Source of the DNA: Mitsuokella multacida DSM 20544
Lineage (GTDB): Bacteria; Bacillota; Negativicutes; Selenomonadales; Selenomonadaceae
DNA length: 64,000 nt
Assembly: GCF_000155955.1 (NCBI RefSeq)
Contig: NZ_GG697141.2
Coordinates: 568,855-632,854 of the forward strand
Direction: 5' to 3'
Positions 4,736-49,874 of the stretch are shown here, one piece after another. The notes beneath the pieces were generated by a model. It was not told where the DNA came from. It was given only the letters and a program-made list of their open reading frames with translations, and searched no databases. The position numbers and the translations under genes were made by a program. Each line of letters begins with the position of its first letter. The first letter of the stretch is position 1.

Positions 4736-5614
4736 ATGATACAGGTGAATTTCAATACGGTCGCGGAACTCATGGCTCTCGCGGAGAGCCAGCAGGTTCC
4801 CGTCCACGAGATCGTGCTGGCGCGCGAGATGCACGACAGCCAGCGCTCGCGCGGCGACATCCTGCAGGAGATGCTCAGGAACTGGCAGGTCATGCAGGAA
4901 TCCATCGAGCGCGGTATCCAGAATACGGAGCGGTCGCTCTCCGGCATGACGGGCGGTGACGCCAAGAAGCTCTACGCCTACCGCGAGCAGGGCTATATGG
5001 GTGAAGCGGCTGTCTCAGCGGCAGCCTATGCCGTGGGTATCAGCGAGGTCAATGCCGTCATGGGCCGCATCGTCGCGTGCCCGACGGCCGGCTCGTGTGG
5101 CATCGTGCCGGCCGCGCTCTACGCGGCGAAGAAGCAGCGCCATCTTGCCGACGCCGACATCGTGCTGGCCCTGCTGACGGCGGCCGGTATTGGCATGGTC
5201 ATCGACCAAAACGCCTCGATTGCCGGTGCGGCGGGCGGCTGTCAGGCGGAGTGCGGCACGGCGGCCGGCATGGCAGCTGCGGCGCTCGTCGAGCTCGCGG
5301 ACGGCACGCCTGCGATGATCGGCACGGCGGCGGCGCTTGCCATCAAGAACCTCTTAGGCCTCGTCTGCGATCCCGTCGCCGGCCTCGTTGAGGTTCCCTG
5401 CGTCAAGCGCAACGGCTTTGCGACCGTCGTCGCCATGACGGCCGCTGACATGACACTTGCTGGTATCGAGAGCGTCATTCCCGTCGATGAGGTCATCGCT
5501 GCGATGAACGAGATCGGCAGGGCCCTGCCGAAGTCCCTGCGCGAGACGAGCGAGGCCGGTCTCGCCGTCACGCCGACGGCCAAGGCCATAGAGAAGCGCG
5601 TCTATCCCGACTGA
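4736..5614 (+). CDS. sdaAA: L-serine dehydratase, alpha subunit
   Basis: This is the catalytic subunit partnering SdaAB; it carries the [4Fe-4S] cluster that activates the serine hydroxyl. The 292-residue product shows GGDAKKLYAY, the cysteine-containing ACPTAGSCGIVPA, and ECGTAAGMAAAALVEL with LLGLVCDPVAGLVEVPCVKRN, all conserved in the family. I prefer ATG 4736 over ATG 4718 because AAAGGG lies about seven bases before it and the protein then begins MIQVNFNTVAELM. No T-rich terminator follows; a very strong hairpin without a T-run stands at 5650-5700. Confidence 0.94.
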   Translation: MIQVNFNTVAELMALAESQQVPVHEIVLAREMHDSQRSRGDILQEMLRNWQVMQESIERGIQNTERSLSGMTGGDAKKLYAYREQGYMGEAAVSAAAYAVGISEVNAVMGRIVACPTAGSCGIVPAALYAAKKQRHLADADIVLALLTAAGIGMVIDQNASIAGAAGGCQAECGTAAGMAAAALVELADGTPAMIGTAAALAIKNLLGLVCDPVAGLVEVPCVKRNGFATVVAMTAADMTLAGIESVIPVDEVIAAMNEIGRALPKSLRETSEAGLAVTPTAKAIEKRVYPD

Positions 5615-5649
5615 GGGATGGAGAGGGCGGAGGACGTAGCTTGGCCGCA

Positions 5650-5700
5650 GGAGAGGGCTGCCCAACGCTGTGCATGGCCGACTGTTGGGCAGCCCTCTCC
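5650..5700. repeat. Perfect 17-bp inverted repeat after sdaAA
   Basis: GGAGAGGGCTGCCCAAC (5650-5666) is the exact reverse complement of 5684-5700, with a 17-base loop. The first nine bases also occur as a direct repeat at 5630-5638. There is no T-run on either side, so it is not a standard intrinsic terminator; it could stabilise the mRNA 3' end or be a dispersed repeat. Confidence 0.75.
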
Positions 5701-49501: not shown

Positions 49502-49540
49502 AAAAAGCTTCCCATCTCAGATTGAGAGGGGAAGCTTTTT
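49502..49540 (+). terminator. Intrinsic terminator after pnp
   Basis: An 18-base stem (AAAAAGCTTCCC...TCTCA with TGAGA...GGGAAGCTTTTT, one mismatch) closes on a GAT loop, ending in T. Confidence 0.88.
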
Positions 49541-49569
49541 CTAGTATCAGCAACTATCATAGAAATCAA

Positions 49570-49852
49570 GGCCGGAGCGAAGCAATCGGCCGCCTAATGT
49601 TCATAGCTGTAAACGGCCTGGAGCAAAGCACTCAGCCGCGCTACCGCAGCAGCTCAGTTTGCAGACATCCGCTCCGGGGCGTGGGCATGCATTCCGCCTG
49701 CAGGAGCGCAGTGACCGCCGCAGGCTGAGCCCCAAGCTGCCGCACCGAAGTCCGGCGATGTCAGAACGCCGCATCAGGCGGCGAAGCACCTAGATACACT
49801 ATCCGTAGCATGGGGCTCATTCAACGGAGCGACGAAGCCGGAATGTATGCCC
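49570..49852. repeat. Noncoding region with nested inverted repeats and repeated hairpins
   Basis: This gap of about 330 bases holds no credible gene. GGGCATGCATTCCG (49683-49696) is complementary at 13 of 14 positions to 49839-49852. Inside it TGAGCCCCA (49726-49734) pairs perfectly with 49811-49819, and inside that CGCCGC (49767-49772) pairs with GCGGCG (49778-49783). To the left are two hairpin-like units sharing a GAGC(G/A)AAGC loop (49574-49583 and 49620-49629), with weaker copies at 49703 and 49826. It adjoins the 3' end of a tyrosine recombinase gene and may be a structured RNA or recombination site. Confidence 0.6.
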
Positions 49853-49874
49853 ATGCCCTTTGCTGACCCCACAC

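Follow-up and report, generated by a model that had tools for sequence, protein, structure and literature searches.

What occupies the gap between pnp and a convergent tyrosine recombinase gene in Mitsuokella multacida DSM 20544, given that no convincing coding frame runs across it? The gap lies in the 64,000-nucleotide stretch of DNA analyzed here (the window), and a preliminary description, which had already called it non-coding, offered two readings, a structured noncoding RNA or a recombination array used by the neighboring recombinase. We propose instead, with a probability of roughly 70%, that the segment is one copy of a new mobile repeat family of Selenomonadaceae, MITE-like, non-autonomous and selected for its structure. 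Its parts, and those of its immediate surroundings, are as follows:

49502–49540, + strand: host intrinsic terminator of pnp (18-nt arms, 94% complementary, TTTTT at the end)
49541–49870, + strand: inserted segment, ends approximate (missing in the relatives G002, G082 and G018; present in G001)
49570–49591, + strand: mini-hairpin GGCCG-GAGCGAAGCAAT-CGGCC, probably the relic of an internally deleted core
49614–49638, + strand: second mini-hairpin, loop GGAGCAAAGC, probably a relic
49652–49675, + strand: 5′ flank akin to the motif GCTCNGTTTGCAGAACGTATCTNAGGG (flanks of 53 copies compared; extent by eye)
49670–49860, + strand: full-length structured core (covariance model match G000:C6:618524-618714, 175.3 bits, model positions 1–193 of 193; this core is itself a member of the model's training alignment)
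49677–49699, + strand: 5′ arm of P1 (helix 1; both sides changed in 19 of 20 pairs)
49717–49725, + strand: small hairpin GCC-GCA-GGC (the form in most copies is GCCC-GCA-GGGC)
49726–49738, + strand: 5′ arm of P3 (helix 6; both sides changed in 6 of 9 pairs)
49756–49784, + strand: conserved motif at the apex, CGATGTCAGAACGCCGC...GGCGGCG, which includes a 3-bp hairpin
49807–49819, + strand: 3′ arm of P3
49818–49839, + strand: internal loop, conserved 3′ side, CATTCAACGGAGCGACGAAGCC
49836–49858, + strand: 3′ arm of P1
49875–50990, − strand: tyrosine recombinase (Phage_integrase, Pfam PF00589), outside the element

The nested inverted arms on which attention first fell are present, and the outer helix is longer than the 14 bases originally assigned to it: positions 49677–49699 pair with 49836–49858 over 23 nt at 87% complementarity, and positions 49726–49738 with 49807–49819 over 13 nt at 92%. 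Likewise, the feature reaches past the span first quoted: the insertion begins directly behind the pnp terminator and continues approximately as far as the recombinase 3′ end. Both upstream hairpins with GAGC(G/A)AAGC loops were recovered (49570–49591 and 49614–49638), and a weaker copy of this hairpin lies at 49825–49841. The segment folds better than dinucleotide shuffles on either strand (z -3.26 each).

The structure stands far above chance, because dozens of copies of the same core of about 190 nt exist and differ by compensatory changes. This core has a long outer helix and an inner helix, between them a conserved internal loop, and small hairpins at the apex. In an alignment of 53 copies from three Mitsuokella genomes, on which the covariance model was built, 96.4% of the pair cells are paired compared with 80.9% in shuffles, both sides have changed in 31 of 41 pairs, and the covariation is 0.449 as against 0.150 in shuffles and no more than 0.09 when partners are slid. 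The covariance check suggested at the outset returned very strong covariation. A long outer helix and an inner helix were found again in separate alignments of halves A and B of the repeat units in the complete genome G126. The motif GCTCNGTTTGCAGAACGTATCTNAGGG precedes many of the 53 cores, and conserved unpaired motifs within the core include CGATGTCAGAACG and GGAGCGACGAAGCC.

G-U cells outnumber A-C cells in all three alignments (78:23, 132:10 and 44:4), as do the corresponding columns (21:6, 11:5 and 9:1), and in each of the three the given strand has the lower consensus energy; these strand statistics treat related copies as independent, so that their p-values are optimistic. The excess of G-U over A-C indicates that every copy forms its fold in its own strand, whether that strand is RNA or single-stranded DNA. 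The pattern argues for selection acting on the fold of one strand, with which RNA and single-stranded DNA are alike compatible.

Scanned over the whole window at the gathering threshold, Rfam yielded no family, and at a relaxed E-value the window segment and seven further loci gave core matches that were absent or at chance level, none above a family cut-off. No earlier description of the repeat family was found in the literature searched, in line with the initial suspicion that the segment was something undescribed. A search of the M. multacida genome with the segment returned at least 45 matches, most of them 70–83% identical, and the covariance model recognized at least 38 full-length copies plus one 73-nt deletion derivative (G000:C6:1144691-1144763), in which only the outer helix and a fused loop, CCTGCAGGAGCGCAGCGACGAAGCC, are kept. 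By their resemblance to this derivative, the upstream window hairpins, with loops GGAGCGAAGC and GGAGCAAAGC, are probably further deletion relics. Elsewhere in the same genome three cores stand in tandem (G000:C4:148946-149512).

In other genomes, the model found at least 60 matches in G126, at least 18 in the Anaerovibrio genome G022, at least 8 in G113 and, among the matches listed, one each in G028 and G136. Within the family draw the element occurs in 32 of 151 Selenomonadaceae genomes and 5 of 30 genera, Mitsuokella and Anaerovibrio included; among 199 genomes drawn across the phylum, matches were confined to M. multacida itself and G017. In Anaerovibrio (G022:C3), six model matches lie within 20 kb (L157, 2151–19444), most of them shortly 3′ of an ORF; they include a 57-nt deletion derivative. 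A second locus (L159) has two cores of greater length, 279 nt as against about 190, at 2123–2401 and 5375–5653. The genus that holds G126, G017 and others is probably Selenomonas, judging from a match to plasmid pSR1 of Selenomonas ruminantium. That plasmid (L211, NC_002139.1), which also carries radical SAM genes, harbors a partial copy of the unit and is the only plasmid match. A phage or plasmid origin was considered and set aside: no viral contig matched the core pattern, there was no phage match, and the sole viral match to the end motif falls within an ORF of a contig lacking the core.

In G126, cores are arranged in divergent pairs that form units of about 600 bp with terminal inverted repeats; divergent core pairs are also present in Mitsuokella and G113. 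The G126 units are 90–92% identical over 553–598 nt with unrelated flanks, and copies in G017 reach 98%. Most of the copies in Mitsuokella are old and have diverged, a point against the MITE-like reading. The units share the ends AAATTGCAGTTTGT, and inverted AAATTGCAGTTTGT...AGTTCGTG ends occur in G126 and elsewhere in its genus, the one genus in which the terminal inverted repeats were defined. Matches to the end motif were obtained in 22 genomes of this genus, and identical end variants recur within species, often near contig ends, which suggests recent within-species spread. For the unit at G126:C1:1561741 an empty site exists, with a match across the junction in G066, G154, G017 and G148; for G066, G154 and G148, automatic alignment against the filled site gave a poor result, and the position of the junction was judged by eye. 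A target duplication may exist: the empty site is compatible with TA, but TA flanks both ends in 9 of the 20 units with both ends recognized. At the matched site in G148 (L182, G148:C63) the sequence ACTGCA lies near the junction and is possibly a footprint of lost element ends.

The window copy itself is an insertion behind the pnp terminator, because three relatives (G002, G082 and G018) keep pnp and the recombinase gene as convergent neighbors without the element. A terminator-like hairpin follows pnp in all three. Mitsuokella jalaludinii (G001) carries two tandem cores at the same place, and the insertion probably dates to the ancestor of the two species with the element at pnp. The recombinase gene, which is single-copy, lies convergent to pnp in all five of these genomes.

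Proximity to terminators extends to other copies. With a strict finder, 16 of 29 units in G126 have a terminator within 30 bp, and in 15 of these 16 the T-run points towards the unit; set against a background of 3.3% per flanking position the enrichment is overstated, because that background includes genes. In Mitsuokella the raw count of a script gave a facing terminator within 110 bp in 14 of 26 clusters. Insertions surviving in harmless places could be a partial cause of the pattern. Flanking-ORF context was examined for 28 units in G126 and 24 in M. multacida; according to a crude ORF caller, the G126 units are flanked by 12 convergent, 12 tandem and 4 divergent gene pairs.

Based on these observations, we envisage that a transposase supplied in trans would move the unit by way of its ends, that landing behind terminators would spare host genes, and that the strand in which the fold acts would be the element's own, RNA being a likelier form of it than single-stranded DNA. 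The small GGAGC(G/A)AAGC hairpins would be internally deleted relics. Nearly all G126 matches to the terminal inverted repeat, exact or with one mismatch, are paired around units of about 600 bp, and no transposase-bearing copy was found among them.

The alternative that survives best, though we consider it unlikely, is a family of functional small RNA genes that act in trans or in 3′ UTRs and were spread by duplication, mobility being incidental. In its favor are the very strong covariation, the strand-specific wobble pairs and the unpaired motifs that copies have in common, CGATGTCAGAACG and GGAGCGACGAAGCC among them; the first two of these bear out the RNA half of the preliminary description insofar as it concerned the fold. 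Against this, copy number varies widely, from 1 in G136 to at least 60 in G126, most sampled Selenomonadaceae genomes show no copy, and insertions with empty sites occur. A simple scan of the window segment also returned no promoter- or terminator-like site, but it missed the pnp terminator as well; the promoter scan of another locus (L123, 900–1650) gave one promoter-like site, at the right edge of the unit.

Quite unlikely, in our estimate, is a mobile element that needs its folded strand, whether RNA or single-stranded DNA, in order to move, targets intrinsic terminators and uses an enzyme yet to be recognized. Two specific forms of strand-dependent movement fare worse. Group IIC introns prefer sites behind intrinsic terminators, and an RNA-mediated element aimed at such sites in the same way would fit the strand-specific fold and the tight terminator adjacency in G126; in G094, one reverse transcriptase gene, which probably belongs to a group II intron, lies directly beside a unit. 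This reading is nevertheless very unlikely: no reverse transcriptase match was found in G000, G001, G113, G017 or G066, the element differs from these introns further in having no Rfam intron match, and the terminal inverted repeats in G126 are of the DNA type. The G094 reverse transcriptase ORF (470 aa; L227, 1153–2700, G094:C3) stops shortly before the unit end, and the locus of a second copy (L224) has no core match. The strand-specific fold would also suit a REP-like element that travels as single-stranded DNA with the help of a Y1 (IS200/RAYT) transposase, and Y1 genes are present in Mitsuokella, G017, G113 and G066; we consider this highly improbable, since element-bearing G126, G022 and G094 gave no Y1_Tnp match and the units are 600 bp long with terminal inverted repeats. 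The search for mobilizer genes covered these two enzyme families, and each is missing from several element-bearing genomes, which rejects either as an obligatory mobilizer.

Finally, the attachment or recombination array proposed for the neighboring recombinase has proximity and inverted repeats in its favor and is extremely unlikely on distribution and synteny, given the three relatives with the recombinase gene beside pnp and no element, the presence of the enzyme in 34 of 61 genomes and in 20 of the 30 genera as against 5 for the element, and the fact that, among the matches listed, 1 of about 40 genomic element copies adjoins it. The recombinase is, as far as its distribution tells, an unrelated, older bystander, because it is present in many element-free genera (most of its genomes belong to genera without the element) and missing from some element-rich genomes: there was no match at E 1e-40 in element-rich G017, and none above threshold in the three sampled members of the genus of G113. 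The co-occurrence once suggested as a check thus does not hold.

Taken as a mobile repeat family, the element means that Selenomonadaceae, which are common in the communities of rumen and gut, have a widespread mobile repeat whose structure is under selection, and it accounts for otherwise puzzling intergenic hairpins. With many copies, a complete genome and empty sites, it also offers a clean system in which to ask why a non-coding element keeps an elaborate strand-specific fold.

Among known systems, the closest general class is that of the MITEs, with which the family shares terminal inverted repeats (in the genus of G126), short length, lack of coding capacity and many intergenic copies. 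MITEs are "typically AT-rich", a usual rather than a defining trait (PMC10969869), whereas the GC content of the window core is 0.64. In the Bacillus cereus group, bcr1 and related repeats are likewise multi-copy and intergenic, and bcr1 is described as resembling MITEs in both structure and function (PMC3446304); the Selenomonadaceae repeat is set apart from them, by description rather than by sequence, in its other host family, its many divergent pairs and its spread over at least five genera. Pneumococcal BOX and RUP elements, too, occur in many copies between genes and are predicted to be extensively structured (PMC3049150). BOX, however, is modular (boxA-boxB-boxC), whereas the Selenomonadaceae repeat has a single complex core, often divergently paired. 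The ERIC and RU elements have a smaller unit, another structure and other hosts. These repeats of Enterobacteriaceae are small, mobile and intergenic and have also been likened to MITEs (PMC2759123).
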